Assembly: GCA_017396465.1 (NCBI GenBank)
Contig: JAFQLU010000049.1
Coordinates: 1-42,424 of the forward strand
Origin: Clostridia bacterium
GTDB lineage: Bacteria; Bacillota; Clostridia; UBA1381; UBA9506
Reading direction: 5' to 3'
Length of the DNA stretch: 42,424 bases
Under the pieces are notes generated by a model that saw nothing but the letters and a program-made list of their open reading frames with translations, did no database searches and was not told the origin of the DNA. Position numbers and translations under genes: made by a program. Below, piece by piece: positions 1 to 31,444 of this stretch; position 1 is the first letter of the stretch; every line of letters begins with the position of its first letter.

Positions 1-3000
1 AAAAAACTGGCATCATTATCTCAGGAAGCACGTCAATGCTGGCTGGATCATTTAGATGCAGGCAGAAGAACGGAGTACATCACAGCAGACTGCTACTATG
101 CGGCGGCTTCGAATGATACGTATTTCCAGCCTCCTGCGGTGATGAAAACCGTAAACGAAATAGCGGGAAACACCAATCAGGTGTTTGCGCCCAATAATAA
201 TCATGCAGTCTTGATTCCCGGCGGAACCACCGGTGTGGACGGTGCAGGATCTCCTGCAGGTTGCAGAATGATGCCGCACTACTTTAACACCGTGCTGAAG
301 GAACAAGCAGAAGAACCCTTCCCCAAGGTAACATACGGCTCCACAAGCCTCAAAGACGACGGATTCCACGTGACAGCAAATATCACGGCTTCCGAAACCT
401 ATCCTGTTACCTCGGCAACACTTTACTACAGCGACAAAGCAGCAGAGTGGACAAACCGAGAATGGAAAGCGGTTCCGGCGACTATTTCCGGAAACACAGC
501 ATCTGCAACCATACCCAAAGAAGCACTCTCCGTTACGAACGAATTTTATATGCTGGTATCCGATGAACGTCCTGTTGTAACAAAAGTGCCTGCCGTAACG
601 GAAAGCGCAGGCGTTTCCGCAAGTACCCTGATTTACACAGCTCCCACCGTTGGGGCTGACGAAATCACCGTGGATATCATAAGCCAGAACGCAGACAGCG
701 TAAACGTTGGCGCAGGTGACGGTAAAACCTACCGCCAGTTCTTCGCAGGCTGCACAGCAAACTACACCGTAGTTGCACCCTCTGCCGGTATGTACACGGT
801 GCATATGAGCGTGGGTACCGTTTCCGATGTTTCCTATAACATGTTTGTAAACGGTATATACTGCGGTAGTGGCGTCATCGCAGGCTCGGGCGATAGCTCC
901 TACCCCAGAGAAGACAGAATCTTAACGGTTCAGCTTCCTCTAAATGCAGGCGAAAATGTCATCACCTATCAGGGTGTGGAAAATAACATGAATGCATACA
1001 ACATCATTTTAAAGCCCGCAGGAGAAAACACCACAAAAGCTTTGGCGGATTCCTTAGGCTTTACCGCGGAATCCGGCAATATCTCAAAACGAAACAGCGC
1101 AGGCAAGGATTTAGCCGATGGCGAAGCACTTGCTAGCTTCGTTCTGTGGGGCGGCACCGTGACTTACACCGTAAACGCTCCTAAAGACGGCTATTATTCT
1201 TTAGAAGCATTGGTTGCAACGGGCGGCGGCACCAAAACCGTAACGCTGACAGCAAACGAAATTTCTACGGCATCCGATGTTGCCACCAAAAACTGGAACA
1301 AAGAAGTTGCAAAAATCGGCACGGGCATTGCCCTGAAAAAAGGTGAAAACACGGTGACATTAACCGCAAACGGCCTGTGGATGTTTGGAGACGGCTTGTG
1401 CTTCACCTACGAAAACGAATGGGCAAGACCGTTATCTGTTGACATCCTGAGCGCCGATACCGTAAAATACGGTAACACCCGCACCGATGCGGCAAACCAG
1501 GTGCTTTTTGCAAACAGCTCCATGGCATGGGATATTGATGTATCCTACGATGGCCTTTATACCTTAGACGGTATGTTGGCAGGCGCGGCGAACGCCTCTG
1601 CTACCTTAGCAGTATGGATTGACGGCGTACAGACGGTAAAAGAAAACCCGATTACCTTTGGTGCAACAGCCTATAAAAAAGAAGCACACACCGTGGCAAC
1701 CGATATTCCGCTGACCGCAGGTAAGCACACCATCCGTGTGGCAAACCGTGCCGGTACTGTGATGATATATAGCTTGAATCTTTCTAAAACTGCAGAATAC
1801 ACCCCGGGTGGATATGCGGCATTTGCTCCTGATGTGAATGAAGAAGTAATCGGAAATCCTTCGGCTGTTGTAAGCCCCGGTGTTGATAACATCATGCGGT
1901 CGCAGGTGTGGTTCAATGCAGGTTACACATGGCATGCCAATCTTGCGGCAGGTTCTTATAAAGTAACCCTTCTGGGCGTGACATCGGAAGCTTATCCCGG
2001 CAAGGCAAAGCTTACAGTAGACGGTGAAACTGTTGCGGATAATTGCATTATTTCCAACAACGGATACGCAACGGATGCTGAAGCAGTGAAAGGCACTTTT
2101 GCAGAAAATCAATTAATCGGTTCTCTGCAGATTGCAGAATCCGGCGAACATACCTTCACACTTTCCAGCGTGAACCAGAATAAATTCTATTATTTCAGAA
2201 GATTGATTGTAGAACGGATCGGAGATATCCGACCTGACATCATTGAAGTGTTTGATGCAAACGGCAACAAAACAGAAGATGCAAAAGCCGGAGTGCTTAC
2301 TGTGAAAGCAAACTTTTTCGAAGAGCATGAAGGCACTGCCGCAACGCTTTATATTGCAACTTATAAAGGCGGTGCGCTGACAAAAGCTGTTTCTGCCAAT
2401 CGCACCACCGAAAGCTATGTGGAAAAAGACATCACCGTCATCGAGGGCGAAACCGTGAAAGCTTTCCTGTGGAACAGCGTTTCCTTTGCGCCTCTTTGCA
2501 AACAGGTGATGCTTCGCCCTGTGAATATCAATCCGTTTGCAGAGGATGATGAAATCAACGTCGTATTCTTAGGCGGCTCCATTACCTTTGGTTCCGGAAC
2601 AACCGATTTTTCCAAATCCTATGCAAGCTTAACGGGTGCATGGCTCAAAGAAACCTACGGAGCAGATAAGGTAAACTGTTATAACGAAGGTGTTCCCGGA
2701 ACGCCTTCCAACTATGGACTTTTGCGTTTGCAACGAGATGTCATCAGCCATAACCCCGATTTGGTGTTTGTGGAATTTGCGGTAAACGATGGTGGCAGAG
2801 ATTCCCGTTCAGACGTGGAGGGTATTGTGAAAATGTTGCAGGATTGCCCCACAAAACCCTACATTGTGTTCCTCTATACCACCAATGCAACATACACCAC
2901 GCCGTTGCAGGGCTTTGGGGAAATTGCGGCGTATTATGATATTCCGTCCATCAACTTAAAGGACGTCTTATATGCCGAGCTCAAGGGGAAAAATCCCAAG

Positions 3001-3558
3001 GATGAAGGCTATTTTGCAGATACAGTACACCCGACAAATATCGGACATGCATTTTATGCAAAAACCATCACCGATAGCCTTGCCACCGGAAGATACTATA
3101 GAAAACCGGCTGTGAAGAATGGTACCATCATGGCAGGCAGCAGCGGCGTTTCCACCACATTCCTGCCGCTTACCGATGACAGCGTTGAGGTAACCGGCAC
3201 ATGGATTCCCGACGTGATTTCACCCGCATGGTCTCACGATAAAGACATTTCCTACGTGTATTCCTCCATGGTGGGTGACAAACTCTCCTTTACAACGGAA
3301 GGCTCTATCTTAGGTATTGAGTTCGGTTACAATAAAAACGCTATGAAATTTGAAGTTTGGGTAGACGGTGTAAAACGCATGACCGTTGACCCCTACTACG
3401 CAATCGAAAGCAACCAGTTAATCTGTGACGCAACCTCTATCACGTTTGCTCTTTCCGAGGGCACACACAACGTGGAAATCATCACCGTGGATAACGAACG
3501 GGGCGGAAACAGCGAGCTGACACTTTACAGCGTGGTATACGGCTCTTATACATCTTAA
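1..3558 (+). CDS. Secreted-type multi-domain carbohydrate esterase, 5' partial (alpha/beta hydrolase end + CBM-like modules + SGNH domain)
   Basis: The reading frame is open from the first base, so the true start and any signal peptide lie upstream; 1185 residues are visible. Residues 1-95 look like the end of an alpha/beta hydrolase of acetyl-xylan-esterase or prolyl-oligopeptidase type, with a candidate catalytic Asp in DTYFQPP (D39) and His in NNNHAV (H68). A beta-rich linker (about 97-200) follows, then about four beta-sandwich modules resembling CBM6/35 (about 220-340, 343-470, 475-598, 599-740), then a module at 742-842 shared with two other proteins here. Residues 850-1035 are an SGNH/GDSL hydrolase: GGSIT (S860), VNDGG (N929), DTVHPT (D1007, H1010). 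A beta-rich tail ends the protein. Likely role: deacetylation of plant polysaccharides outside the cell. Two esterase folds in one chain is unusual. Substrate is inferred. Confidence 0.8.
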   Translation, partial: KKLASLSQEARQCWLDHLDAGRRTEYITADCYYAAASNDTYFQPPAVMKTVNEIAGNTNQVFAPNNNHAVLIPGGTTGVDGAGSPAGCRMMPHYFNTVLKEQAEEPFPKVTYGSTSLKDDGFHVTANITASETYPVTSATLYYSDKAAEWTNREWKAVPATISGNTASATIPKEALSVTNEFYMLVSDERPVVTKVPAVTESAGVSASTLIYTAPTVGADEITVDIISQNADSVNVGAGDGKTYRQFFAGCTANYTVVAPSAGMYTVHMSVGTVSDVSYNMFVNGIYCGSGVIAGSGDSSYPREDRILTVQLPLNAGENVITYQGVENNMNAYNIILKPAGENTTKALADSLGFTAESGNISKRNSAGKDLADGEALASFVLWGGTVTYTVNAPKDGYYSLEALVATGGGTKTVTLTANEISTASDVATKNWNKEVAKIGTGIALKKGENTVTLTANGLWMFGDGLCFTYENEWARPLSVDILSADTVKYGNTRTDAANQVLFANSSMAWDIDVSYDGLYTLDGMLAGAANASATLAVWIDGVQTVKENPITFGATAYKKEAHTVATDIPLTAGKHTIRVANRAGTVMIYSLNLSKTAEYTPGGYAAFAPDVNEEVIGNPSAVVSPGVDNIMRSQVWFNAGYTWHANLAAGSYKVTLLGVTSEAYPGKAKLTVDGETVADNCIISNNGYATDAEAVKGTFAENQLIGSLQIAESGEHTFTLSSVNQNKFYYFRRLIVERIGDIRPDIIEVFDANGNKTEDAKAGVLTVKANFFEEHEGTAATLYIATYKGGALTKAVSANRTTESYVEKDITVIEGETVKAFLWNSVSFAPLCKQVMLRPVNINPFAEDDEINVVFLGGSITFGSGTTDFSKSYASLTGAWLKETYGADKVNCYNEGVPGTPSNYGLLRLQRDVISHNPDLVFVEFAVNDGGRDSRSDVEGIVKMLQDCPTKPYIVFLYTTNATYTTPLQGFGEIAAYYDIPSINLKDVLYAELKGKNPKDEGYFADTVHPTNIGHAFYAKTITDSLATGRYYRKPAVKNGTIMAGSSGVSTTFLPLTDDSVEVTGTWIPDVISPAWSHDKDISYVYSSMVGDKLSFTTEGSILGIEFGYNKNAMKFEVWVDGVKRMTVDPYYAIESNQLICDATSITFALSEGTHNVEIITVDNERGGNSELTLYSVVYGSYTS

Positions 3559-3559
3559 A

Positions 3560-3877
3560 ACAGTTTGAAGCGAAGCATTAGCTTCGCTTCAAACTGTCGA
3601 AAAAGGCAGGTCTACCGCAAGCAAGTATTTCCAAAAGTGAAGCTATGTAATAATAGGAAAAAGATATTTCTAACAAATAATGGTACGGTTTTCTCGATGA
3701 AAACCGTACCATTGCTTTCTTCTGCCGAACACAAACTCTACCGGACCATCGTACGCTAACGAATTTGTGTTCGCCAAATATCCCTACCTTTTGTCGAAGT
3801 CTGCCTCCGGCGTGTCGAAGCTTTTACCCACAGGGTACACCGTCGACACGCTGAAGCAAAGATTAGCTTCGCTTCTT
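3560..3877. repeat. Intergenic element with nested inverted repeats
   Basis: This gene-free stretch holds four separate inverted repeats: a 17-bp perfect stem with ATTA loop (3560-3576/3581-3597), a 15-bp perfect stem with TCGAT loop (3679-3693/3699-3713), CGAACACAAA and its complement (3726-3735/3764-3773), and GCGTGTCGA and its complement (3810-3818/3843-3851). The motif ending ATTAGCTTCGCTTC occurs at both ends (3567-3590 and 3853-3875). The first hairpin directly follows the esterase stop codon and could act in 3'-end formation, although no T-tract follows it. The arrangement suggests a MITE-like or REP-like intergenic repeat; copy number cannot be judged from one window. Confidence 0.6.
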
Positions 3878-3909: not shown

Positions 3910-3927
3910 TGTATTGAGGTGAAATCG

Positions 3928-4971
3928 ATGAAAATTTCAGAGCTGGATAAAAATATGAAAATTGATTCAAATATTCACGAGCCGGGGATCGTCTTTCGAC
4001 ATATGGATGAAGAGCCATTTGAGGTTTTGGGTGTAACGCGGTATCAGGACCATTATATCCGCATGGATGCTGATGTGGCAAAATCTCTGAAAACCGGTGT
4101 ATACGATTTGGCACAGCATACCTCCGGCGGCAGAGTCCGTTTTATGACCGATTCGGAATATATTGCCCTTTCCTGCAAAGTGCCGCAGTCGAACAATATG
4201 TATCATGCCACACGTGCTATGCAGTCGGGCTTTGACCTGTATGCCGACGGCATATTTCGATATGTGCTTGCCTCTCGTGAGGGGGATCACATTCATAAAT
4301 ATGAAGGAATTGTTCACTTTGGCGAACGGAAAATGCGGGAGATTGTGATCAACATGCCCCTCTATAACTCGGTAAATGATTTGTATATCGGTCTGGAGGG
4401 AGATTGCAAGGTTTGTGCCTGCAAGCCCTATGAAAAAAAGATGGTGTTCTATGGATCGTCCATCACACAGGGCGGATGCGCTTCACGACCGGGAAACTGC
4501 TACACATCTATTGTTGCCCGCAAGATGGGTTGGGATTATCTGAACCTTGGCTTTTCCGGTAACGCAAAGGGGGAACAGATTATGGCAGAGTATATCGCTA
4601 AGCTTCCCATGGACCTTTTTGTGATGGATTATGACCATAATGCGCCCGATGCAGCGCATCTTCAGAATACCCACAAGCCCTTTTTTGATACCATCCGCAA
4701 AAAGCGCCCCGAGCTTCCCATCCTGATTCTGACGATGCCGGATCATTTAAGAATCGATGATGCGCACTTAAGAACTGCGGTGGTATATGATACATACCTG
4801 CAGGCGAAAAAAGCCGGAGATGAAAATGTGTATTTTATCAGCGGTGCCGAAATGATTGGAAAATACGGCTACGATAGCTGCTTCGTGGATGGATGTCATC
4901 CCACGGATATGGGATTTTTCCGCATGGCGGAAGCGGTTTTAAAGCAGCTTGACAGAATCGGATTAAAATAA
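3928..4971 (+). CDS. SGNH/GDSL-type esterase with GxDLY N-terminal domain
   Basis: This is a 347-residue cytoplasmic-looking protein with no signal peptide. The N-terminal half is a beta-sandwich with the SGFDLY signature of the GxDLY domain that precedes many carbohydrate SGNH esterases. The C-terminal half is the hydrolase: GSSITQGG with catalytic Ser (S178), NLGFSGN, DYDHNAPD supplying the oxyanion Asn, and DGCHPTDMG with the catalytic Asp/His (D321, H324). It probably removes acetyl or other acyl groups from sugars. ATG is chosen over an upstream in-frame GTG because that GTG lies inside the ribosome site TGAGGTGA. The gene is monocistronic: its own promoter precedes it and a terminator follows. 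It follows the larger SGNH-containing esterase, suggesting related substrates outside and inside the cell. Exact substrate is unknown. Confidence 0.85.
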   Translation: MKISELDKNMKIDSNIHEPGIVFRHMDEEPFEVLGVTRYQDHYIRMDADVAKSLKTGVYDLAQHTSGGRVRFMTDSEYIALSCKVPQSNNMYHATRAMQSGFDLYADGIFRYVLASREGDHIHKYEGIVHFGERKMREIVINMPLYNSVNDLYIGLEGDCKVCACKPYEKKMVFYGSSITQGGCASRPGNCYTSIVARKMGWDYLNLGFSGNAKGEQIMAEYIAKLPMDLFVMDYDHNAPDAAHLQNTHKPFFDTIRKKRPELPILILTMPDHLRIDDAHLRTAVVYDTYLQAKKAGDENVYFISGAEMIGKYGYDSCFVDGCHPTDMGFFRMAEAVLKQLDRIGLK

Positions 4972-10479: not shown

Positions 10480-12477
10480 ATGGAAATAACGGTTGCAAAA
10501 TCGGCAGGCTTCTGCTTCGGCGTTGCCAGAGCTCTGGAAATGGTGGAGCAATGTGCGCAGGATAAAGAAACCACCTATCACACCTTAGGCCCCATCATCC
10601 ACAATAAGCACGTTGTGGACGAGCTGGCAGGGCGGGGCATTGCTCCCATCGAAAGCGTTTCGGAAGCAAAACCCGGCGATAACGTGATTGTCCGTACTCA
10701 CGGCGTGGGAAAAGCGGTTTACGAAGAAATGAAAAACAGGGAAATCGGGATTACCGATGTGACCTGTCCCTTTGTGAAAAAAATTCACAATATTGTGGAA
10801 AAACATTACAAAGAGGGGTACACCATTGTCATCATAGGTGACAAAAATCATCCCGAAGTGCAGGGAATTAACGGCTGGTGTGAAAACAAAGCGGTGATTC
10901 TGGGCTCTGAAGAGGAAGCAAAATCGGCAAAATTTGACGAAAAACCCCTTTGTGTGGTCTCTCAAACCACATTTATGCAAAAAATTTTCAAAAAAATCGT
11001 ATTTTTTTTAAAAAATACTTGCAATGACATACTAATATTTGATACAATATGTAGTGCGACTGAAGAAAGGCAGAATGAAGCTCATGCTCTGGCATCCGTT
11101 TCCGACATGATGATTGTGTTAGGCGGACGGAACAGTTCCAACACGCAGAAGCTGTATTCGATATGCAAAAGCGTATGCGCCGAGACTTATGTGCTGGAGC
11201 ATATCGGCGAGCTGGACGCTCAGTTGTACAACAATTCCAAAAAAGTTGGAATTACCGCAGGCGCATCTACGCCGGCGGTCATAATAAAGGAGGCAATTTG
11301 TAAGATGGAAAACTTTGAAAGCTTTGAAAGCCTGGTTGAGGAGTCTTTAAAGACTTTAAACACCGGTGACGTTGTGAAAGGAACGGTAATTGAGGTTCGT
11401 CCCAACGAAGTCATCGTTGACCTGGGCGCAAAGCAGGACGGATTTATTCCCGCAGGTGAGATTTCGGACGACCCCAACGTTACAACAGCAGACATTGTAA
11501 AACCCGGTGACGAAATCGAGGTGTTCGTTGTTCGTGTAAACGATGCGGACGGCAACATTATTCTCTCCAAGAGAAAACTGGATTCTGCAAAAACTTGGGA
11601 AGCAGTAAAAGCTGCTGCTGAAGAGGGTACTGTTTTAGAAGGGAAAGTAACAGAAACAGTAAACAAGGGTATGATTGTAGCATACAAGGGCTACAAGGTG
11701 TTCATCCCCGAATCTCAGGCAAGCGAAAGACGCGTAAGCGACCTTTCCGGTCTGGTTGGCAACGTTGTTGCATTTAAAATCATTGATATAAATGAAAGAA
11801 GAAAACGTCTGGTTGGTTCTGTAAGATCCGTACTGGAAGCTCAGAAAAAAGAACTGGAAGAAAAGTTCTGGGCAGATGCAGAAGTTGGCAAGATTTACAA
11901 CGGTGTTGTAAAATCCTTAACAAACTTCGGTGCGTTTGTTGACATCGGCGGCGTGGATGGTTTGGTTCATATCTCCGAGCTGAGCTGGAAGCACATCAAG
12001 CATCCTTCCGAAGTTGTTTCCGAAGGCGATGCAATTGAAGTGTACATCAAGGATATCAATGCTGAAACCAAGAAGATTTCTTTAGGCTTCAAAAAGGCTG
12101 AAGACAATCCTTGGGAAGTTGTAAAATCCAAGATTGAAGTAGGCGGCACAACAACAGTTAAGGTAGTTAGAATCATGCCTTACGGTGCGTTTGCAGAAAT
12201 CATCCCCGGTGTTGACGGTTTGATTCACATTTCCCAGATCGCTAACCGCAGAATTGAAAAGCCCCAGGACGAACTGGAACTGGGTCAGGAAGTGGAAGTT
12301 CAGGTAACAGAAATCGATTGGGATGCAAAGAAAATTGCACTGTCCATTCGTGCACTTTTAGCTCCTGAAGCTCCCGCTGAAGAAGCAGCTCCCGAAGTTC
12401 CTGCAGCTGAAGAAGCAGCTCCTGTAGCAGAAGAAGCTCCTGCTGAAGAAACTCCTGCTGAAGCTGACGCTGAATAA
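10480..12477 (+). CDS. ispH: Bifunctional HMBPP reductase (IspH) / ribosomal protein S1 fusion
   Basis: Residues 1-275 are 4-hydroxy-3-methylbut-2-enyl diphosphate reductase, the last enzyme of the MEP isoprenoid pathway: the three [4Fe-4S] Cys (C12 in AGFCFG, C96 in VTCPFV, C191 in DTICSAT) and catalytic Glu in HPEVQG (E126) are present. Residues 276-628 are four S1 RNA-binding domains (about 293-366, 382-452, 468-537, 555-626) with motifs such as NFGAFVDIGGVDGLVHISEL. An Ala/Glu/Pro-rich tail ends the protein. This fusion is known in Clostridia. Internally there is a consensus ribosome site before Met276 and a promoter-like sequence, so a free S1-like protein of 390 residues may also be made. 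The IspH segment at residues about 166-190 is strikingly AT-rich compared with its flanks. Confidence 0.93.
   Translation: MEITVAKSAGFCFGVARALEMVEQCAQDKETTYHTLGPIIHNKHVVDELAGRGIAPIESVSEAKPGDNVIVRTHGVGKAVYEEMKNREIGITDVTCPFVKKIHNIVEKHYKEGYTIVIIGDKNHPEVQGINGWCENKAVILGSEEEAKSAKFDEKPLCVVSQTTFMQKIFKKIVFFLKNTCNDILIFDTICSATEERQNEAHALASVSDMMIVLGGRNSSNTQKLYSICKSVCAETYVLEHIGELDAQLYNNSKKVGITAGASTPAVIIKEAICKMENFESFESLVEESLKTLNTGDVVKGTVIEVRPNEVIVDLGAKQDGFIPAGEISDDPNVTTADIVKPGDEIEVFVVRVNDADGNIILSKRKLDSAKTWEAVKAAAEEGTVLEGKVTETVNKGMIVAYKGYKVFIPESQASERRVSDLSGLVGNVVAFKIIDINERRKRLVGSVRSVLEAQKKELEEKFWADAEVGKIYNGVVKSLTNFGAFVDIGGVDGLVHISELSWKHIKHPSEVVSEGDAIEVYIKDINAETKKISLGFKKAEDNPWEVVKSKIEVGGTTTVKVVRIMPYGAFAEIIPGVDGLIHISQIANRRIEKPQDELELGQEVEVQVTEIDWDAKKIALSIRALLAPEAPAEEAAPEVPAAEEAAPVAEEAPAEETPAEADAE
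11019..11048 (+). promoter_or_regulatory. Possible internal promoter for the S1 half
   Basis: TTGCAA, 18-bp spacer, TACAAT, preceded by alternating A and T tracts that resemble an UP element. It lies inside the IspH coding sequence, about 250 bp before the internal S1 start, where base composition turns abruptly AT-rich. Confidence 0.45.
11286..11307 (+). promoter_or_regulatory. Internal ribosome-binding site and start for S1
   Basis: AAGGAGG stands 12 bp before an in-frame ATG (Met276 of the fusion), exactly at the border between the IspH and S1 parts. Initiation here would yield MENFESFESL..., which resembles a natural S1 N-terminus. Confidence 0.6.
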
Positions 12478-12959: not shown

Positions 12960-13070
12960 CTGACGGTCAGGTCCTGATGCGTGAGATGCTAAATAGCGCA
13001 AAGATGCCGTCCGGACCAAAATGGGTTACATCCCCTGATATTGCAAAAACATGAAAACGGAGGAAATCAT

Positions 13071-15488
13071 ATGCAGTTAAACGGCAGTTGGATATTAAAA
13101 GGCACAGATGAAAAAGGAAGCCCGATTACGCTTCCCGTAACCGTTCCCGGTTGCGTGCACACGGATTTGTGGGAGCATGGATACATCAAGGATTTATACT
13201 ATCGGGACAATTCCAAATACTACGGATGGATAGAAGATAGAAATTTCACCTATGAACGCACATTTTTAGTGGAGCAGGCAGAAAAACATGCGTATTTAGA
13301 ATTTGACGGCTTGGATACATACTGTGATATTTTCTTAAACGGCGTGAAGGTGGGAGAAGCGGAGAATATGTTTATTCCTTATGCTTTTCCGGTGGACGGT
13401 GTGCTGAAAAACGGCGAGAACACCCTTCGTGTGGAGTTTCGCTCTCCGATAGCCGAGGTGGCAGACAGACCGCCGCTTCCCGGTGTATTCACAACGGAAC
13501 GGCTTCATACCAGAAGAATGCAATGTACCTACGGATGGGACTGGGTGGATCGCTTTGTTACCCAGGGGATTTTCCGCGATGTACGGCTGACATTCCGCAA
13601 GCCCAACGAAATCGACAATGTTTATGTGTTCACAAAACGCATCACACCGTACGCCGCGCAGGTGAAGATTGAGATTGCGTTCCGCGATGTCGTGAAGGAA
13701 CAGGAAGCAGTAAGCATGGAGATTTTCGCACCGGACGGAGCATGCGTATTCTCCAAAACGCGCATGATTTTAAAAGAGGATATGGACGAAAGCGTGGATG
13801 TTGTGAATCCGCAGCTGTGGTTCCCCAACGGATACGGAGAGCAGCCGCTTTATAAGTTGGTTTTAAAAACGAAACACTCCGAAAAAGAAGTGATGTTCGG
13901 TATCCGTGAAATCACGGTTCTGCAGATAGAAGACACACCCGGAAGCGAAGAAGAAATGCTCTGCAAGACCCTTCGCGAAGACCCGTTCTTCTGCGGGCGT
14001 GACCGGAACGAAAGCGGCGCGTGCTTTACTGTTTTGGTAAACGGCGTGAAAATTATGTGTAAGGGCGGAAACTGGGTTCCCTGTGAACCGTTCCCCTCTG
14101 CGGAAACACCAGAGAAAATAAAAACGATTTTATCGCTTGCCAAGAATGCCGGCATGAATATGATAAGAATCTGGGGCGGCGGTATTTTCGAGCAGGATGC
14201 TTTATATGAACTCTGTGACCGCTTCGGTATTTTAGTCACACAGGACTTTCTGATGGCGTGCGGACAGTATCCGGAAAAGGAAGAATGGTTTATCAAGGCG
14301 CTGAACGAGGAAGCAAAATATGCGGCGCTTCGCCTGAGAAATCATCCCTGCCTTGCATGGTGGACGGGTGATAACGAAAACGGAGAATTAGGCTCGGAAA
14401 ACAAAACGGATTTTATGGGATATCTTGCGGCAACCTACGGCGCAGAGCCGGTTCTGAAGCAATACGACAGAGAACGGTATTTCTTCCCGTCCTCTCCCTA
14501 CGGCGGCGATTATTATTCATCTATCACTCGCGGTACAACCCATAACACCAACTTCCAGAGTATGGTGTATGACGAAGCATTCGACACGGATTTTAAGCAT
14601 TATCCGGAATTTTTCTCCAAAATGTTTGCTCGGTTCAGCGTGGAACAGATGTGCTTAGGTCTGCCTTTTGTATCGTCACTTTTAAACTTTATGACGGAAG
14701 AGGATATCTACGGTCCCGATACCACTATTTCCGAATATCATATGCGGGACGGCGGCGGAAAACGGTACACGCTGTTTGAAGCGGCAAACCAGATGGCAAA
14801 GCAGATGTTCGGTGATTACACGGATGGCAAAGACGGTGTGAAAAAACAGCAGATGCTTCAGACAGAATGGATTCGTCTGACGCTGGAAACCCACAGACGG
14901 CATAAGTGGTTCTCCTCCGGTATTGTATACTGGATGGTGAATGATTGCTGGCCTGCGGCAAACGGATGGTCGATTATTGATTACTACGCAAAGCCGAAAC
15001 CGGCATACTATGCGTTTCAGCGCGGTGCAAAGCCTTTGGTTTCGTCTTTGGAGAGAAAGAATGAAAAACTGCTTCTGCATATTTCAAATGACGGACTTTT
15101 GGCAGCATCGGGAAGCGCAACCGTGTTTGCATATGATGTGAAGCGTAAGACCAAAACGGTGGAAAAGGAAATTGCATTTTCTGTGGATGCCAACGAAACG
15201 GCGGCTGTAGCAGAATTTGATTTTTCGGAATTCGACAGAGAAAACACCGTGATTCTTTGCGATATGGCCTCTAATCTGGGTGAGGACCGTACCTTCTATG
15301 TAAAAGACGGATTGAGAAGTCTTGGAATCACCTATGAGGATGCAGAAATTGTTGCAGAGGATCAAGAAAGCATCACCGTAAAAGCAGAAAGCTTTATTCC
15401 GGTTGTTCTGCTGGATGTTCCGGAAATACTGGAAGAAAACTGCTTCCCCATGCTGGCAGGAGAAACAAAACGGATTATGAAAAGATAA
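13071..15488 (+). CDS. Beta-mannosidase-like glycoside hydrolase, GH2
   Basis: The 805-residue protein has no signal peptide, so it acts in the cytoplasm. The N-terminal jelly-roll domain carries the beta-mannosidase signature TVPGCVHTDLWEHGYI...YYRDN. A beta-sandwich and TIM barrel follow: IRIWGGGIFE, then WWTGDNENGEL with the acid/base Glu (E436; usually GNNE, here GDNE), then RFSVEQMCLGLP with the nucleophile Glu (E525; usual form RFxSEFGxQSxP). It likely releases mannose from beta-mannosides. The ribosome site is GGAGG. A serine esterase gene follows after 12 bp. The sequence around the nucleophile is divergent, so substrate may differ from classical beta-mannosidases. Confidence 0.88.
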   Translation: MQLNGSWILKGTDEKGSPITLPVTVPGCVHTDLWEHGYIKDLYYRDNSKYYGWIEDRNFTYERTFLVEQAEKHAYLEFDGLDTYCDIFLNGVKVGEAENMFIPYAFPVDGVLKNGENTLRVEFRSPIAEVADRPPLPGVFTTERLHTRRMQCTYGWDWVDRFVTQGIFRDVRLTFRKPNEIDNVYVFTKRITPYAAQVKIEIAFRDVVKEQEAVSMEIFAPDGACVFSKTRMILKEDMDESVDVVNPQLWFPNGYGEQPLYKLVLKTKHSEKEVMFGIREITVLQIEDTPGSEEEMLCKTLREDPFFCGRDRNESGACFTVLVNGVKIMCKGGNWVPCEPFPSAETPEKIKTILSLAKNAGMNMIRIWGGGIFEQDALYELCDRFGILVTQDFLMACGQYPEKEEWFIKALNEEAKYAALRLRNHPCLAWWTGDNENGELGSENKTDFMGYLAATYGAEPVLKQYDRERYFFPSSPYGGDYYSSITRGTTHNTNFQSMVYDEAFDTDFKHYPEFFSKMFARFSVEQMCLGLPFVSSLLNFMTEEDIYGPDTTISEYHMRDGGGKRYTLFEAANQMAKQMFGDYTDGKDGVKKQQMLQTEWIRLTLETHRRHKWFSSGIVYWMVNDCWPAANGWSIIDYYAKPKPAYYAFQRGAKPLVSSLERKNEKLLLHISNDGLLAASGSATVFAYDVKRKTKTVEKEIAFSVDANETAAVAEFDFSEFDRENTVILCDMASNLGEDRTFYVKDGLRSLGITYEDAEIVAEDQESITVKAESFIPVVLLDVPEILEENCFPMLAGETKRIMKR

Positions 15489-22574: not shown

Positions 22575-25500
22575 ATGTGTTTGAAAAAAATGATGTCCTG
22601 CATTCTGGCATGTCTGATGATTGCCGCTATGGCAGTTCTGCCGGTGCAGGCGGAAACAGCCGTGCCGACAGGGTATGTCACAGACAATCTGGTTCTGTTC
22701 CTGGATGCTAACAACAACACAGGAAACGGCTACGATGCAGACGCAACAGATTGGGTGGACTTATCCGACGCTACGGGAGCCACCAAGGTGAGTACCAACG
22801 GAAACACCTGGGGTACAACGGAACGGTGCCTGGACATGAACGGGTATATCAAGCTGCCGGAAAAGGTTCGTCAGGCGATTTCCGGTGACAACTGGACAGT
22901 AGAGTTCGTGATGGAAGACTACCCGGAAACTGCGTCTGCTTCCAACATCCGAAACGTAATGGCGCTGACCGGTGACGATGCGTGGATTGCATCTTCTACA
23001 ACAAAAGGCTCAACGCCCAATGATAATTTCGTTATCTTCCAATCAGCGAATACAAGCAATCTGCGGCTGAAAATGATGGGTGCATCAACGGGAAGGGTTA
23101 TTTCCGGAAGCTATTTTGGTCCTTCCAATGCTACGGCAGTTAACGGAACGACAACAGCCATTGCCTTTGATAAGAACAATAACAGAATCGGGTGGTATTT
23201 TGACGGCAAGGCATCCTCTCTCGTATCTTTCTACGTGCAGGATACGGTGAAAGCAGACGGCTTTATTGTAAACGGAACCTATCAGACGGAAAGAAAACCG
23301 CAGGTGATTTTCGGTGCGGCAACCGACAGAGTAGCAAGCCGTGAATTTATCGGTAAGGTAAAAGCAATCCGTGTATACAGCGATGCGCTGACCGATGCAG
23401 AAAAAGCACAGAATGCCGCGCTGGACAGAACACGCTATAAAGTAGACGACGATGATGGCTATCTCAAGGACAATCTGGTTCTGCATTTAGATGCCAATAA
23501 CAACACAGGAAACGGTTTTGATGCAAACGCAACATCCTGGACAGACCTTTCCGATCCCACAGGAAACACAAAAGTTGACTTAAACGGCAATTCCTGGGGA
23601 AAAGACGAAGGCTATTTAGATTCCTATTATCTGGATGTAAACGGCTATATCAAGTTGCCGGATAAGGTGCGGCAAGCCATCAGCGGAAAAGAATGGACGG
23701 TGGAATTTATTTTAGATTCCTATCCGACCGGCACAACCTCCAATATACGAAATATTTTAGCGCTGACCGGTGATGATGAATGGATCGCATCAACAAAGAC
23801 TAAGGGTTCAACCCCAAACGATAATTTCGTTATTTTCCAGTCGGCAAACGCAAAAACCCTTCGTCTGAAAATGATGGGTGCATCGGGTGCCATCTTTAAC
23901 TATTTTGGCGTGGATGATACCGCATCTTTGGAACAAACAACAAACACAATTACATTCCATCATGATAAAAAGCAGGCTGCCTGGTACCAGAACGGTACGG
24001 CAAAATATGTGAGCGGATTCCTGCGTCAGGATACTGCAAAAACAGACGGCTTTATTGTGAATGGTACCTACCAGACCGAAAGAAAGCCGCAGGTAATTTT
24101 CGGTGCGGCAACCGATACGGTTGCAAGCCGTGAATTTATGGCAAAAGTGAGGGCGATTCGCGTGTACAGTGATGTTTTAACAGCGGATGAAATGAAAATC
24201 AATGCCGGGGCAGATGCCGGCAACTTCTATTCGGAAGACGGATCGACGCACAGACATTCCTACGCAACAGAATACTCTCAGAATGAAACAAGCCATTGGT
24301 ATGCATGTACCAAGGAAGACTGCGTATCGGCACCTTCCGAGCTGAAAGAGTTTGGCGATCACGTATACGACGGTAGCGATGATTATATCTGTAACGTGTG
24401 CGATTACACCCGTTCAACCAAAATCACCGAATCTTATGAAGTAGATATCTATGAACCGGATACGGATATTAAAACGGCGCCGATTGTGATGCAGACGGCA
24501 AATGCGGCAACGAGCGATGTTTCTTCGGAAGCAAAACGCCCCTCTGCTCTGATTTTTGACGTGAAGGCAGAAAACGGCGTACTGTATGCATATGACGGCG
24601 ACGAGAAACTGGGAGAATTTACTGCGCTTTATAAAAAGAACGGCTCAAAAGCCAATATGGGCGCAAGAATTTCCGATATGGCAACAGCAGAAGCTTTGGC
24701 AGAATGGGTTGGCAGAGACCGCATCGGAAACCTTTGGGTTATCTCGAATGATGTGGAACAGCTGGTAACCGTATCCAGCCCTAGTAAGCTGGATTTATCC
24801 GACAGAACCATCACCACAGCAGGCAATCCGGTGAAAGCCAGATATCTGCGGGTGGTAAGTGACACGAAGTATTTAGGATGTTCGGAATTTGATGTTACGG
24901 GTAAAACCGAAAGCGGCGAAACCATAGATCTTCTTCACGATGCAAACGGCAACTTAAGAACCGGCGTTGTGCTGAGCCATTCCGGTACCATTTACGATAA
25001 CGGTGCTACCATCGACTGGATTGCAAACGGCAACGAAGAAGACAGAACCTATATCGGCGGCGAAACCGGTAAAACCTACTTCCAGATTGATTTGGGAAGC
25101 GAACAAAATGTTACGGGCATTACCTACAAAATCATAGACGATGCCAAATGGAATCATTTCCGGTATCAGGACTTTAAGATTGTGCTGTCCAATGACCCGG
25201 CATTCTTAACCGGTGTTACAACCGTTATGAATATTGGTAAATTAGGCACAGAAAATACACCGGAAAACTTCCCCTTATATTTCAAAGTGGATTTGAGCGG
25301 AACGGGAACAGGATATGCAGGTGATATGAAAATCACGCCTTACATGTCCAACCTGGTGCGTGGCATAGTAGACTTCACGGGTAAAACCGTGCGTGGTCCC
25401 GGCAGAATCTCTTACGATTTCGGTACAGATGCAGAGGATATATTAGATGAGCCTGTAGGCGGTGCGTTTGCTAATAAAACACAGCAGAATTTTGAATATG

Positions 25501-27167
25501 TAACCTATAGCGCAGGCGATAAGGAAACGGTTTATGAAGCCATGAGCTGGGATGAAATATACGATGTCATGTATAGCCGTGGCTACAGAAACGCACTCAT
25601 TCCTGCCCATGTGCTGACAAAAGAACACGTACATTCCCTGCAGGGATCTTTGGTGAACGTCATCGCCCAAACCGATGCAACAACAGAAAAAGAGTTCTAT
25701 GACTTAATTACCACCGGTGTGAACGGAATCTTGTCCTCCGATTATAAAACCAATATTGCGGCGCTGGAAAGTGATGTGTTCAACGCAGGCGGCGAAAGCA
25801 TTCTGGTGCGTGGCGGCTCCGTTGTCGGACACCGTGGCGATATGGGAAATCATGACCTGTACCCCGAAAACTCGGTAGAAGCCATTGTTGCAGGTGCGCA
25901 GAGCGGTGCAGATTCTGTAGAGTTTGACGTGTATATGACCATGGATGGTTATTTGATCCTGATGCACAACAACAATATTTCCGGCTTCTTTGATTACCCC
26001 GAAGATTATACGGGAACCCGTGTGGACAGCAAAGTAACCATCACCCAGAGATACTGGAAGGGAGACTTGGAGTATCTGCAGTCTACCTATAATCCCGAAA
26101 TCGGCATGCAGCAGCTCTGGCAGCTTTATGAAGCGGTCGACACAGAATATCCTGAACTGCGTCTGCATCACGAAATCAAGGACTTCAGAACAGAAACCTT
26201 TAACCGTCTGACTTATGTTATGGAGCAATACGGCATGCGTTCGCGTTCCGACATTGTTTGCTATAATAAAGACATTATCCGTTATGCCAACGAAATGGGT
26301 ATTTCCGCACAGTTCTTAAATCTTGCGGAAGGCGAAATCGTAACAAAGGACAGCGTAAACCGCAGATACGAAACAGAAGCGCTTTATCGTCCCATCAACT
26401 CCACATGGCACACCATGTGGCAGTATATCGACACGGAATATCTGGAAGACCTGAAGCATTTCGGTCTTTCCGCATATCCCTGGGCAACATACACAGAAGA
26501 AGTAATGGACGGCTATTATGTGCAGGGCTATCAGGGCTTTACCACAGATATCGTTCACGATACAGATGATTATGTGAAGGAAATCGTGCCTTCCGTGGAT
26601 CCTTTAAGCGGCAAGGTAACTGCAAAAGCATACACGCTTTCTCACCACACGAAGAAAGGCACTTTTGACGAAAGCTCGGTAGTGGTTGAAAAATGGTGGA
26701 TTGCAGACGGAACATCAAGAGCAGATACGGAATACGATTTAGCTGATTTTGAAATCGTAGCAGTAGCAGGCCAGCCTGTTATCGACCAGACAAACAAAAC
26801 TGTCAGCGGCGGTGCAGGTGATGTGATTGCAATCCGCAGTAAGCAGGCATTAAACGGCGCTTCTTACTATGTATATTCCGACGGCTTTGATTTAGGCGAC
26901 TGCAAGGAAGGTAGCTTGAAAATTGATACAGAAAAGCATACCGTGACAGTATCGGCTAATGCAGATAGCTTCACGGAAGGTATAGCCGTTGTGGCAATTT
27001 ACAGAGACAAAGAACTGTTAGGCGCTAAAACGGTGGGTCTTTCTGAAGCTGCAGACATCAGTGAAACATTCTCCTATAGTGGAAATGCTCCTGATATAGC
27101 AAAGATTATTTTCGTAAAAGATTTGAAAAATGTAGTGCCTATGAGAGAGGCAATTGTACTGAAATAG
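22575..27167 (+). CDS. Secreted glycerophosphodiester phosphodiesterase with duplicated LamG-like domains
   Basis: The 1530-residue protein begins with a signal peptide (cleavage expected after VQA, residue 26). Residues 32-288 and 296-545 are two closely similar concanavalin/LamG-type domains (both with NTGNG, KVRQAISG, FVIFQSAN and FIVNGTYQTERKPQVIFGAA). A Cys/His-rich stretch (about 558-615, CTKEDC and CNVCDY) follows, then an F5/8-type (discoidin-like) region (about 740-905). The catalytic GDPD barrel (about 1075-1340) has GHRG (H1086), YPENS (E1098), EFDVYM (E1116, D1118) and LMHNN (H1131), all expected family residues. The end (about 1440-1530) resembles a module in two other proteins here. 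No anchor motif is visible. Likely role: hydrolysis of glycerophosphodiesters (or teichoic/phosphoglycerol substituents) at glycan surfaces; the substrate is inferred. Confidence 0.85.
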   Translation: MCLKKMMSCILACLMIAAMAVLPVQAETAVPTGYVTDNLVLFLDANNNTGNGYDADATDWVDLSDATGATKVSTNGNTWGTTERCLDMNGYIKLPEKVRQAISGDNWTVEFVMEDYPETASASNIRNVMALTGDDAWIASSTTKGSTPNDNFVIFQSANTSNLRLKMMGASTGRVISGSYFGPSNATAVNGTTTAIAFDKNNNRIGWYFDGKASSLVSFYVQDTVKADGFIVNGTYQTERKPQVIFGAATDRVASREFIGKVKAIRVYSDALTDAEKAQNAALDRTRYKVDDDDGYLKDNLVLHLDANNNTGNGFDANATSWTDLSDPTGNTKVDLNGNSWGKDEGYLDSYYLDVNGYIKLPDKVRQAISGKEWTVEFILDSYPTGTTSNIRNILALTGDDEWIASTKTKGSTPNDNFVIFQSANAKTLRLKMMGASGAIFNYFGVDDTASLEQTTNTITFHHDKKQAAWYQNGTAKYVSGFLRQDTAKTDGFIVNGTYQTERKPQVIFGAATDTVASREFMAKVRAIRVYSDVLTADEMKINAGADAGNFYSEDGSTHRHSYATEYSQNETSHWYACTKEDCVSAPSELKEFGDHVYDGSDDYICNVCDYTRSTKITESYEVDIYEPDTDIKTAPIVMQTANAATSDVSSEAKRPSALIFDVKAENGVLYAYDGDEKLGEFTALYKKNGSKANMGARISDMATAEALAEWVGRDRIGNLWVISNDVEQLVTVSSPSKLDLSDRTITTAGNPVKARYLRVVSDTKYLGCSEFDVTGKTESGETIDLLHDANGNLRTGVVLSHSGTIYDNGATIDWIANGNEEDRTYIGGETGKTYFQIDLGSEQNVTGITYKIIDDAKWNHFRYQDFKIVLSNDPAFLTGVTTVMNIGKLGTENTPENFPLYFKVDLSGTGTGYAGDMKITPYMSNLVRGIVDFTGKTVRGPGRISYDFGTDAEDILDEPVGGAFANKTQQNFEYVTYSAGDKETVYEAMSWDEIYDVMYSRGYRNALIPAHVLTKEHVHSLQGSLVNVIAQTDATTEKEFYDLITTGVNGILSSDYKTNIAALESDVFNAGGESILVRGGSVVGHRGDMGNHDLYPENSVEAIVAGAQSGADSVEFDVYMTMDGYLILMHNNNISGFFDYPEDYTGTRVDSKVTITQRYWKGDLEYLQSTYNPEIGMQQLWQLYEAVDTEYPELRLHHEIKDFRTETFNRLTYVMEQYGMRSRSDIVCYNKDIIRYANEMGISAQFLNLAEGEIVTKDSVNRRYETEALYRPINSTWHTMWQYIDTEYLEDLKHFGLSAYPWATYTEEVMDGYYVQGYQGFTTDIVHDTDDYVKEIVPSVDPLSGKVTAKAYTLSHHTKKGTFDESSVVVEKWWIADGTSRADTEYDLADFEIVAVAGQPVIDQTNKTVSGGAGDVIAIRSKQALNGASYYVYSDGFDLGDCKEGSLKIDTEKHTVTVSANADSFTEGIAVVAIYRDKELLGAKTVGLSEAADISETFSYSGNAPDIAKIIFVKDLKNVVPMREAIVLK

Positions 27168-27258: not shown

Positions 27259-29115
27259 TTATATTTTATCAAAATAACATTTCACCGTTCTGTGATTTCC
27301 GGGTAGGGCAACATCAATGCCGTGTTGGTTGATTTCTTTTCCTGTCATCACGGTGCCGGAGGAAAGCTTATAGCTTGCGTTTTCGTCCACCATGGGAAAG
27401 AGTGTGACATTATCCTGGCGGATTTTGTGGGTATATACCAAGATTCTGGACTTCGTCATGGCAATATCAGTGTACTGCAAGACCAGAACTGATTCGGTGT
27501 CACACAGAATGCGGCAAACTGCCGTTTTCCAGAAGTCTCTTTCTGCCTTAAAATCTGCAATTTCCTGCTTGAACGTTTTCATCAAGTTATCTGTGAAGGA
27601 ATTCAGGTCGCAGGAAAAACTGATAGGACCGCCCAGCATAAACCCGGAGATGAAGTCCGGGAACACGGCTGCGATGCTGTTCCAGGTGGCATCGTTTGTG
27701 GCAAGGATTTTTTCCGTCAGCTCGTCACTGTCATACACGGGACCGAAATTGTCCAAAGAACGGATGGTTGCCCAACGCTCCATCCAGTTCGCCGGCATAC
27801 GGCGGATGGTGTCTTTCACGATACGGAGACCTTCGTAGGGGCTCTGGTCATCGGTGAACCAGAAACTGTCGAAATCCTTACCGTCACGGACGGACATACG
27901 CTGACCGCCGGATGCGCAGTTACACAGATACAAATCAGGATACCGCGCCTTTACTTTGGCGAGGTACTCGTTGTACCCCTCAAAATATGCGGTAAAGGCA
28001 GACTGATATTTGTCGTAGCTCAGGTCGGAGTTAAAATCAAATTTCATAAAGTCTGCGTGGAAACGGTCAATCAGCTGGCAGGTGATGTTAAAAATATGTT
28101 CTCTTGCTTCGGGATTGGCAAAATCCAGGAAATAATTTCCCTTATATTCGATGAAATAATCGGGATGAGTTTTTAGAATTTCTGCCGATTCGCCGGCGCT
28201 TTCCGGCTCCAGCCAGAAGCCAAATTTCATACCTGCCTTGTGAACCTCGTCGGCAAACTCGGCAGTTCTTCCGTAGAAGCCACCGGTCATGTTTTCTTTC
28301 CAGTCGCCACGGGTGCCCCACCAGAGACTTCCGTCGCCAAACCAGCCTGCGTCCACAACATAGTATTCCACGCCCAGCTCCTTGGCTCTGGGAATCTGCG
28401 CCATGGCAGACTCATAGTTGATTTTATCGAACTGATACATCCAGGTGTTATATAAAACAGGCATTTCCCTTCTGGGGAAATGGGTGTGACAGTAGTTATG
28501 AATCTTATAGCAGTCCAAATCCACTTTGTTTAATACATCATATGTAATCACGGTGGGAAGCGCAAAGCTTTCACCGGGCGCCAGTGTTTTGGTGAAGTTA
28601 TCCTTTAAGATACCGGCATATACTTCAATTGCCGTCAGCTCACCGCCCGCGTAGATACGACTTGCGGTCAGCTCCCATGCAGATTGTGCCAGCAGGTGAA
28701 ATGCTGTTCCGCGGTTTGTCTGATTGCTCCACAGAACCATGAAAGGTGCGGCAGAACTGGTATTTCTCACGCTTTTACAGATAGCGGAAACAGAAGTTAC
28801 CAAAGGCTGCCATGCGCCCATGCTCTCGTTCTGCCAGCCGTTATACTGGGAATACACCTCGTATTCGCCACCGTCAAACTGAAACTTCAGCTGCAGGCAG
28901 TTTAAGGTGATGTTTTTGTCGCTTGTGTTTGTAACAGATGTAGTGTATGTGCAGACACCTAAATCATCCGTTTCTGTAACGGTTTTAGCAACAACACCAT
29001 TGGTTTCAGCGGAATGTGCGTCGTCTGCTGTGGTAGCTGTTCCGCAGATTTCGCCGAAATCACCGGTGATAACCCATATATCTCTTGCATTGGTTTTATC
29101 GGTTATTTTTTTCAT
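27259..29115 (-). CDS. GH36 alpha-galactosidase-like enzyme
   Basis: The 618-residue protein lacks a signal peptide. An N-terminal beta-supersandwich is followed by a TIM barrel with VVDAGWFG, FGFWLEPE, KFDFNSD (nucleophile Asp D360; classical form KWDxNR) and CNCASGGQRMS, then FTDDQSP with the acid/base Asp (D422 or D423). The 62-residue spacing between the two catalytic Asp fits GH36. It probably removes alpha-linked galactose (or a related sugar) from imported oligosaccharides; the KFDFNSD change leaves the substrate open. It lies 57 bp downstream of an AraC-type gene on the same strand and may be co-transcribed with it. GAGGATG is the ribosome site. Confidence 0.88.
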   Translation of the reverse strand: MKKITDKTNARDIWVITGDFGEICGTATTADDAHSAETNGVVAKTVTETDDLGVCTYTTSVTNTSDKNITLNCLQLKFQFDGGEYEVYSQYNGWQNESMGAWQPLVTSVSAICKSVRNTSSAAPFMVLWSNQTNRGTAFHLLAQSAWELTASRIYAGGELTAIEVYAGILKDNFTKTLAPGESFALPTVITYDVLNKVDLDCYKIHNYCHTHFPRREMPVLYNTWMYQFDKINYESAMAQIPRAKELGVEYYVVDAGWFGDGSLWWGTRGDWKENMTGGFYGRTAEFADEVHKAGMKFGFWLEPESAGESAEILKTHPDYFIEYKGNYFLDFANPEAREHIFNITCQLIDRFHADFMKFDFNSDLSYDKYQSAFTAYFEGYNEYLAKVKARYPDLYLCNCASGGQRMSVRDGKDFDSFWFTDDQSPYEGLRIVKDTIRRMPANWMERWATIRSLDNFGPVYDSDELTEKILATNDATWNSIAAVFPDFISGFMLGGPISFSCDLNSFTDNLMKTFKQEIADFKAERDFWKTAVCRILCDTESVLVLQYTDIAMTKSRILVYTHKIRQDNVTLFPMVDENASYKLSSGTVMTGKEINQHGIDVALPGNHRTVKCYFDKI

Positions 29116-30021: not shown

Positions 30022-30094
30022 CCTTTTCAATCGTTTTCAAGGTGGATTTTTCTTGGGATCTGTAATACAATCAAAAAAGAAAGGGGAGAGATCC

Positions 30095-31444
30095 ATGAAT
30101 AACAGAAGAAAAGTATTGGAACTGTTTGAAAGGCAAAAAATTCAGACAGAAGACAGAATTCAAAACGGAATAGAACAGCATCGCAAAGGCTTTGCGCATC
30201 TGGAAATAAAAGATAAGAACGGACAAGTGATTCCGAACGCAAAGGTGAGAGTGAATCAAACAAGTCACGCCTTTCGATTTGGTGCCAATCTGTTTATGCT
30301 GGAAGAAATGGAAACAAAAGAGAAAAACGAGGCGTATAAAAAGTATTTTGCAGATCTTTTCAATATGGCAACGTTGCCGTTTTACTGGGATGCAACAGAG
30401 CCGGAAAAGGGCAAGACAAGATATACAAAAGACAGCGAAAAGTTTTATAGAAGACCGCCCATTGATTTGTGTATAGAATACTGCGAGGCAAACGGTATAG
30501 AGCCAAGGGAACACGCCTTAGCGTACGACAGATTCTTCCCGAAATGGTTATATGATGCATCTGTGGAAGAAGTGAAACAAGCACTCGTAAAACGATGTCA
30601 GGAAATTTCTGAACGGTATCGCGATAAAATTCCGACCATTGAAGTAACAAACGAAATGGAATGGAGTGACAGCAGAACATCGTTTTATAACGAACCGGAT
30701 TTCGTGGAATGGTGTTTCAAAACCGCGGAAAAATATTTTCCCGGCAATCAGCTTGTTGTGAATGAGTGGATGGGTCTTTGCTGGGAGGATCGTTGCCGTT
30801 TTAATGATAAATACTATACGTATATTGAAAACACGTTGCTTAAAGGCGCAAGAATTGATGCGATAGGCATGCAGTTTCATACCTTCTTCCGTTTGGAGGA
30901 TGAGTATGAAAAGTCGAGACCATATTATGATCCGGATAAATTATACCGTCACATGGATTTATATGCAAACCTTGGAAAACCTCTGCAGGTGACGGAAATC
31001 ACCATTCCCGCCTACTCGAACGGCGAAGAAGATGAGCAGATTCAGGCGGAAATTTTAACATGGCTTTATAAAATCTGGTTTTCTCATCCAAATATGGAGC
31101 AGATTATTTACTGGAATCTGGTGGATGGATATGCGCATCTTTGGGATCCCGATCCGGAAGCCATCAAAGCATCCCAAGGGAATATGACTTTGGGCGAAAA
31201 CTATTATTACGGCGGTCTGATTCGTTTTGACCTGACACCGAAGCCCTCTTACTACGCCCTCAAAAAGCTGATTCAGGAAGAGTGGCACACGGAAGAAGCG
31301 ATGGAAACAGACAACGAAGGAAAAGCAATGTTTAAAGGCTTTTACGGTACATACGATGTGGAAGTGGAAAAAGACGGTGTTGTGACGACACATACCATAA
31401 ATTTCACGTCGAAGAGCAAAGAGCAGTTTGAGATTACATTGTAA
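30095..31444 (+). CDS. GH10 endo-beta-1,4-xylanase-like enzyme
   Basis: The 449-residue protein has no signal peptide, so it should hydrolyse imported xylo-oligosaccharides in the cytoplasm. A short N-terminal beta-rich segment (about 33-55) leads to the barrel with FRFGANLF, YWDATEPEKG, HALAYDRFFPKWL, EVTNEMEW (acid/base E187) and LQVTEITIP (nucleophile E301), then IIYWNLVDGYAHLW. The C-terminal 45 residues form a small beta-rich extension (GFYGTYDVEVEKDG). The ATG after AAGGGGAGAG is used. Upstream there is a good -10 (TACAAT at 30066) but a poor -35, consistent with activation by the divergent AraC-type regulator. A terminator follows directly. Confidence 0.9.
   Translation: MNNRRKVLELFERQKIQTEDRIQNGIEQHRKGFAHLEIKDKNGQVIPNAKVRVNQTSHAFRFGANLFMLEEMETKEKNEAYKKYFADLFNMATLPFYWDATEPEKGKTRYTKDSEKFYRRPPIDLCIEYCEANGIEPREHALAYDRFFPKWLYDASVEEVKQALVKRCQEISERYRDKIPTIEVTNEMEWSDSRTSFYNEPDFVEWCFKTAEKYFPGNQLVVNEWMGLCWEDRCRFNDKYYTYIENTLLKGARIDAIGMQFHTFFRLEDEYEKSRPYYDPDKLYRHMDLYANLGKPLQVTEITIPAYSNGEEDEQIQAEILTWLYKIWFSHPNMEQIIYWNLVDGYAHLWDPDPEAIKASQGNMTLGENYYYGGLIRFDLTPKPSYYALKKLIQEEWHTEEAMETDNEGKAMFKGFYGTYDVEVEKDGVVTTHTINFTSKSKEQFEITL

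Follow-up and report, generated by a model that had tools for sequence, protein, structure and literature searches.

Introduction

Acetyl groups on hemicellulose block glycoside hydrolases (GH), and gut bacteria clear these groups with two esterases of different positional preference. Two carbohydrate esterase (CE) families illustrate the folds at issue here, CE6 being of the SGNH type and CE1 of the alpha/beta-hydrolase type. We analyzed a stretch of 42,424 nucleotides from a Clostridia bacterium (contig JAFQLU010000049.1 of GenBank assembly GCA_017396465.1, positions 1 to 42,424 of the forward strand; termed the window) and in particular the gene at its beginning (1-3558), whose product carries an alpha/beta hydrolase and an SGNH hydrolase on one chain, joined by modules of the carbohydrate-binding module (CBM) type.

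Two esterase folds on one chain are of a known kind, with precedents in the CE6-CE1 fusions and, in trans, in CE7/CE25 and CE2/CE17 pairs. Acetyl-feruloyl CE6-CE1 fusions are described from Bacteroides ovatus and Flavobacterium johnsoniae, and intramolecular synergy on xylan is reported for the B. ovatus enzyme (PMC7110780). They likewise unite two different esterase heads, but in these enzymes CE6 comes first, the heads are separated by a 76-residue insert or by none, and ferulate is one of the targets, whereas the chain in the window starts with the alpha/beta hydrolase, ends with the SGNH part and draws on other families. The pairs RiCE2/RiCE17 and BcCE7/BcCE25 combine complementary esterases for one substrate, but as separate proteins acting in trans. 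RiCE17 (also RiCEX) of Roseburia intestinalis, a CE17 member of solved structure (6HFZ and 6HH9), is presented as a mannan 2-O-acetylesterase (PMC13276840); it is described as acting with RiCE2 as a complementary pair on acetylated mannan (PMC10492685, PMC6385246), and almost complete deacetylation of manno-oligosaccharides is reported for RiCEX plus RiCE2 (PMC6385246). For BcCE7 and BcCE25, likewise a complementary pair on acetylated mannan, complete deacetylation with no synergy in rate is reported (PMC13276840), and the triad and oxyanion Asn of BcCE25, the partner of the CE7 member BcCE7, are placed like those of RiCE17. Among the papers listed by searches of the open-licence literature, none showed a chain combining CE7-like and CE17-like heads in its title or the start of its abstract.

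Results

The gene occupies positions 1-3558 of the window on the + strand, like all features of the chain given below, as a single open frame of 1185 codons with one terminal stop. Its 5' end is truncated: base 1 of the window is the first base of contig 16 of the source genome (1.96 Mb, 140 contigs, estimated completeness 54.6%), and since the contig begins inside the gene, the gene start and the N-terminus are missing. The frame matches the profiles of both heads, which upholds the sequence-only reading of a single chain that unites esterases of two folds and has CBM-type modules between them. When the own genome was searched with residues 1-382 of the first-head relative from genome G003, no contig end bearing the missing 5' piece was found; apart from the window itself, the search returned four chains whose alpha/beta hydrolases are more distant and one weak match (E 0.117). 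One contig end considered for the missing piece was rejected because its sequence is that of a lysyl-tRNA synthetase.

Residues 1-110 (1..330) constitute the C-terminal half of an alpha/beta hydrolase, followed by the beta-sandwich of the same unit (residues 111-213; 331..639); the 432-residue relative from Persicitalea terminates with an equivalent sandwich. Single-sequence searches with the first 190 residues matched two other genomes only, G003 and G087, the former in overlapping sets of 61, 95 and 391 genomes. When named genomes were scanned with a three-row alignment, six loci emerged, from G003, G087, Persicitalea, a Pirellulaceae bacterium, Geminisphaera and a Prolixibacteraceae bacterium (whose frame ends at a contig end, after the catalytic residues). 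Two of these relatives belong to Clostridia of the window's order and four to other phyla, the family being seen in Bacteroidota, Planctomycetota, Verrucomicrobiota and Clostridia. The acid D39 (115-117) and the base H68 (202-204), which had been picked out near the visible start from the letters alone, are invariant in all seven aligned sequences including the window; they are 29 residues apart, and 28-30 in the six relatives. The conservation of D39 is partly built in, because one of the search patterns behind the relatives contained its ND, and of the four relatives outside the window's phylum three matched solely that pattern; H68 and GxSxG were in no pattern. Two further hydrolases, found in G539 by profile search, possess GxSWGG, ND and NxxH.

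Of the Ser-Asp-His triad, D39 and H68 are visible in the window and the position of the Ser lies beyond the contig edge. No GxSxG was found in the visible 1185-residue chain; the motif is present in all six aligned relatives, and their Ser-to-Asp spacing (74-76 residues in five, 82 in the sixth) indicates that the nucleophile should sit about 36 residues upstream of the edge.

The six relatives gave modest Pfam matches spread over DLH, Peptidase_S9, AXE1, S15 and BAAT_C, several above their cut-offs and none dominant. Structural comparison was made on the Persicitalea relative (L058, 432 residues). Its model (mean predicted local distance difference test score, pLDDT, 81.1; predicted template modelling score, pTM, 0.83) shows a strand (183-193) running into S194, followed by a helix (195-206). 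In a structure search the first 21 of 50 listed rows were acetyl xylan esterases, acetyl esterase TM0077 or cephalosporin-C deacetylases (Z 29.8-24.5), the next row was an S9 peptidase (Z 23.4), and ferulic acid esterases stood at Z 22.0, level with peptidases; the first 41 rows of a Foldseek search were likewise of deacetylase type. CE7 membership is stated in the title of 7XMJ and we assume it for the other deacetylase-titled matches apart from 1ODS and 6AGQ, which are assigned to CE7 in PMC13276840. The modelled relative thus shares with the CE7 acetylxylan esterases/cephalosporin-C deacetylases (1L7A, 1ODS, 3FCY; BcCE7) the fold, with Z up to 29.8, and the Ser-Asp-His order.

The signature motifs given for CE7 are RGQ, GxSQGG and HE (PMC9728288). 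In our alignment RGQ and GxSQG were found in none of the six relatives and a Glu after the catalytic His in none of the seven rows, H68 of the window being followed by A69; in contrast to CE7, the family moreover has an additional C-terminal beta-sandwich. CE7 membership was rejected on the missing motifs, and since the fold is nearest to CE7 structures, the first head is, by this modelling, CE7-like in fold but not CE7. Three relatives carry other domains. One CE7-like hydrolase is fused to a beta-helix that Pfam assigns as rhamnogalacturonase A/epimerase-like (L062, 4938-8399), another to a beta-helix recognized by eye (L094, 9911-12514), which hints at pectic substrates for some family members. 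A third, close relative (L045, 6372-9350, +) has an LVIVD-repeat region N-terminal on the same chain, a marginal match (20.3 bits, cut-off 20.2).

The second head is an SGNH hydrolase domain (residues 837-1036; 2509..3108) that matches Pfam Lipase_GDSL_2 with 58.7 bits (cut-off 32.9). Its catalytic residues S860 (2578-2580), N929 (2785-2787), D1007 (3019-3021) and H1010 (3028-3030), in GGSIT, VND and DTVHP contexts, are exactly where the sequence-only reading had placed them. It is followed by a C-terminal CBM35-like module (1037-1185; 3109..3555) that aligns with the CBM35 of RiCE17 (6HFZ). Taken alone, the window chain matched the SGNH domain of 6HFZ with E 1.2e-24, and the second-best chain lay at about 1e-3. 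A profile of six rows (the window, four chains of its own genome and one of G056) matched 6HFZ at 29-355 of 378 residues with E 4.1e-40, spanning SGNH and CBM35, and the next structure with E 7.3e-12 over part of the SGNH domain only. The second head and its module, at residues ~847-1164, are thus related to RiCE17, and S860/N929/D1007/H1010 align with its S41/N110/D190/H193, the catalytic residues named in PMC13276840. RiCE17 is a two-domain enzyme, whereas the corresponding unit in the window is the C-terminus of a far larger chain with a second hydrolase head. A scan of viral contigs with the SGNH head returned no relative.

Between the heads lie four modules, M1 (216-342; 646..1026), M2 (343-473; 1027..1419), M3 (474-600; 1420..1800) and M4 (601-740; 1801..2220), and an Ig-like linker stretch (741-836; 2221..2508) whose fold was recognized by eye. 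The four beta-sandwich modules counted by the sequence-only reading are therefore present (216-740); the tally was slightly off as regards the hydrolase's own sandwich (111-213), the Ig-like stretch and the C-terminal CBM35-like module, which had gone unlisted. M1, M2 and M3 are mutually similar, weakly (phmmer E 0.004-0.12), and it is by this weak similarity to M2 and M3 that M1 is called CBM6-like. M2 reached 25.7 bits against CBM_6 with the whole protein, below the curated cut-off of 28.9, its best stretch being 383-458. The M3 model (pLDDT 60-83 over 511-600) resembled CBM6 and CBM35 structures, with Z 10.9 for CBM6E (root-mean-square deviation 2.2 over 99 residues) and Z 10.4 for a CBM35; at least one linker module is thus, by its model, of CBM6/35 fold. 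M1 and M3 also weakly resemble modules of hydrolase chains of the own genome (E 9e-5 and 0.0035). M4 was predicted with low confidence and had no relative among the loci compared, and the Ig-like stretch had no family match and two weak relatives (phmmer E 0.0009 and 0.003).

Among all frames of at least 150 residues in the loci examined, only the window matched both profiles. Twenty other SGNH chains (loci L028-L047, one cut by a contig end) all lacked a match to the hydrolase profile, and a scan of genome contigs with the whole protein, which may omit the window's own or very near genomes, found no relative. As to the hydrolase itself, in the window's order 8 of 95 genomes (own included) had a match at E ≤1e-8, most of them distant; in a sample of the class 2 of 391 had one at 1e-25, namely the own genome and G003; and in the Persicitalea order 2 of 291 had one at 1e-50, one being Persicitalea. 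Seven loci of 8 to 20 kb contain a close hydrolase relative (L032, L045, L058, L059, L061, L062 and L094). In Persicitalea, the gene directly upstream of the standalone hydrolase, on the same strand, matches positions 59-369 of the SGNH+CBM profile and ranks first among the five such matches of the 6.4 Mb genome, an adjacency that supports, as a single case, a functional link between the hydrolase and an SGNH+CBM protein. L062 has a partial SGNH match (1.5e-5) and the remaining five loci have none. In a genome of the same order, a 1657-residue chain (L034, 5563-10536, +) carries an SGNH domain (1190-1363) and, after it, an endonuclease/exonuclease/phosphatase domain (1401-1643).

Downstream of the gene, a consensus scan placed a terminator-like hairpin of 16 pairs (3678..3714, +); the scan found 6 terminator-like sites against 1.9 expected in shuffles. 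The next gene (3919-4971, +) encodes a separate SGNH esterase of the GxDLY/Lipase_GDSL_3 type, whose best solved relative is 4LHS (E 2.8e-37). Because of the hairpin between the genes it is probably a separate transcription unit, and as no leader peptide was visible by eye in its product either, it was set aside as a same-operon partner. Further along are genes for a GH2 with a mannosidase Ig domain (13041-15488), a GH36-type melibiase (27259-29115), a GH10 (30053-31444), for which the genome gave no other match, a protein of 754 residues (32605-34869) that resembles an alpha-galactosidase by eye but has no Pfam match up to E 1e-4, and a GH39 (34873-36360). Other frames on the + strand encode a 1048-residue protein (38608-41754) with a leader-like start and, by eye, beta-sandwich modules only, among them a relative of the esterase's module M2 (E 4e-7), and in which no catalytic domain was detected; a 1530-residue protein (22575-27167) in which residues 1086-1325 form a glycerophosphodiester phosphodiesterase domain and an F5/8 type C match stays below threshold; and a 665-residue frame (10480-12477) uniting LytB (IspH) with four S1 RNA-binding domains.

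The own genome yielded one GH26 match and none to GH130, an absence that says little because it is estimated to be only 54.6% complete. Large modular esterases appear to be numerous in it. Of 21 first-look candidates 11 were scored, which gave at least five further SGNH chains; these five have N-terminal CBM_4_9 matches, one above the curated cut-off, and start by eye with sequences like leader peptides. The genome also has the four chains with more distant alpha/beta hydrolases. At the locus L055 (7637-14720, -), two long chains in tandem each place an AXE1-type alpha/beta hydrolase close to the C-terminus, and one of the two has a CBM_6 match just above cut-off.

Discussion

We favor, as reasonably likely, a reading in which this protein is a modular and probably exported acetylesterase acting on carbohydrates; it would have two serine-hydrolase heads, each independent of the other, and CBM6/35-type modules for hemicellulose. 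Both heads look like deacetylases, because the Persicitalea model is nearest to deacetylases of the CE7 kind and the SGNH/CBM35 part matches RiCE17. The N-terminal head would be an alpha/beta hydrolase of CE7-like fold using a Ser beyond the contig edge together with D39 and H68, and the C-terminal head would work, with its CBM35-like module, as a RiCE17-like SGNH enzyme. The CBM6/35-type linker modules would keep the enzyme on hemicellulose, where both heads may remove acetyls from the same polysaccharide chain and so expose it to backbone-cleaving enzymes. By analogy, the target is probably the acetyl groups of plant hemicellulose. The decorated xylan proposed from the sequence becomes one of several options. 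The SGNH head is similar to a mannan esterase, and the gene context cannot choose between the two substrates, since the window has genes of the xylan type (GH10, GH39) as well as of the galactomannan type (GH2 mannosidase-like, GH36). Xylan is no better supported than mannan.

A number of observations weigh against this reading. The predicted activity rests on resemblance throughout, and the nucleophile and N-terminus of the first head lie beyond the assembly. AXE1, the CE7-type Pfam model, is the top alpha/beta-hydrolase match in one of the six relatives, DLH or S9 being best or tied elsewhere; one relative weakly matches an NCBIfam polyhydroxyalkanoate depolymerase model (19.7 bits, cut-off 150); and the CE7 motifs are missing. 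A full RiCE17-type neighbour occurs at one of the seven close-relative loci, that of Persicitalea, other close relatives being fused to a beta-helix or an LVIVD region instead. Structure prediction, which the sequence-only reading had proposed, supported an alpha/beta hydrolase for the first-head relative and a CBM6/35 fold for M3, but the full chain reached a pLDDT of only 39.9 and was confident only for the hydrolase's sandwich and M3. As to the second head, the CBM35 clamp Trp326 of RiCE17 (PMC13276840) lacks an aligned tryptophan in the window chain and corresponds to a glutamine (~Q1139), an alignment that is uncertain because the position falls in a loop; the invariant Y1132 and Y1133 are close by. 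RiCE17, under the name RiCEX, is also described as cytoplasmic (PMC6385246).

Four other explanations were weighed against these data. The first head may have another job, for instance on pectic side chains or peptides, or have lost activity, so that only the SGNH head deacetylates hemicellulose. The relatives fused to rhamnogalacturonase/epimerase-like or beta-helix domains (L062, L094), the scattered Pfam matches and the absent CE7 motifs would all fit, but acid and base are conserved, the nucleophile is present in all six relatives and CE7-type structures rank above S9 peptidases for the Persicitalea model; we regard this as unlikely. It is quite unlikely, in our view, that the chain combines a feruloyl esterase head with an acetyl esterase head and uses both jointly on arabinoxylan like CE6-CE1 enzymes. 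The window does contain a GH39 and the one GH10 match that the genome gave, a GH115 gene lies near the Geminisphaera relative, and polyhydroxyalkanoate depolymerase, weakly matched by one first-head relative, is a fold relative of CE1. On the other hand, the CE1-type Pfam model Esterase, which we take to be PF00756, is absent from the matches of the six relatives up to E 0.01, and the best solved match of the SGNH head is a mannan acetylesterase. An acetyl/feruloyl division of labour is described for CE6-CE1 fusions in Bacteroidetes (PMC7110780). Of the dual deacetylase/feruloyl esterase suggested by the sequence-only reading, the deacetylase half stands by resemblance for both heads, whereas a feruloyl esterase identity of the first head found no specific support, the deacetylases (Z 24.5-29.8) outranking the ferulic acid esterases (Z 22.0) structurally.

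We think it very unlikely that the heads are joined only through an assembly error near the domain boundary. The join is seen on one contig of an assembly estimated at 54.6% completeness, the genome collection gave no second copy (with a scan that may omit the own or very near genomes) and no other examined chain has both heads. The frame is however unbroken, composition is close on either side of the junction near residue 214 (GC content 0.49/0.50, GC at third codon positions 0.46/0.55), an in-frame error between domains is itself improbable, and the linker modules M1 and M3 have their weak counterparts in hydrolase chains of the own genome. At the opposite extreme, the chain could be a natural and exported cis fusion of a complementary mannan-deacetylating pair, in which the CE7-like head would remove equatorial acetyls (3-O and others) and the CE17-like head the axial 2-O-acetyl, both on one acetylated galactoglucomannan chain; the first head would then found a CE family beside CE7. 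This proposal is rather doubtful; if true, a single polypeptide would do the work of the RiCE2/RiCE17 or BcCE7/BcCE25 pairs.

Returning to the favored modular acetylesterase, this gene of a gut bacterium appears to be a new combination of known parts and not a new kind of enzyme, and the CE7-like family without CE7 motifs is a candidate for an uncharacterised esterase family. A single chain with two deacetylase-type heads would permit a direct test of whether physical linkage yields synergy, which is reported for the CE6-CE1 enzyme of B. ovatus (PMC7110780) and not for BcCE7 and BcCE25 acting in trans.

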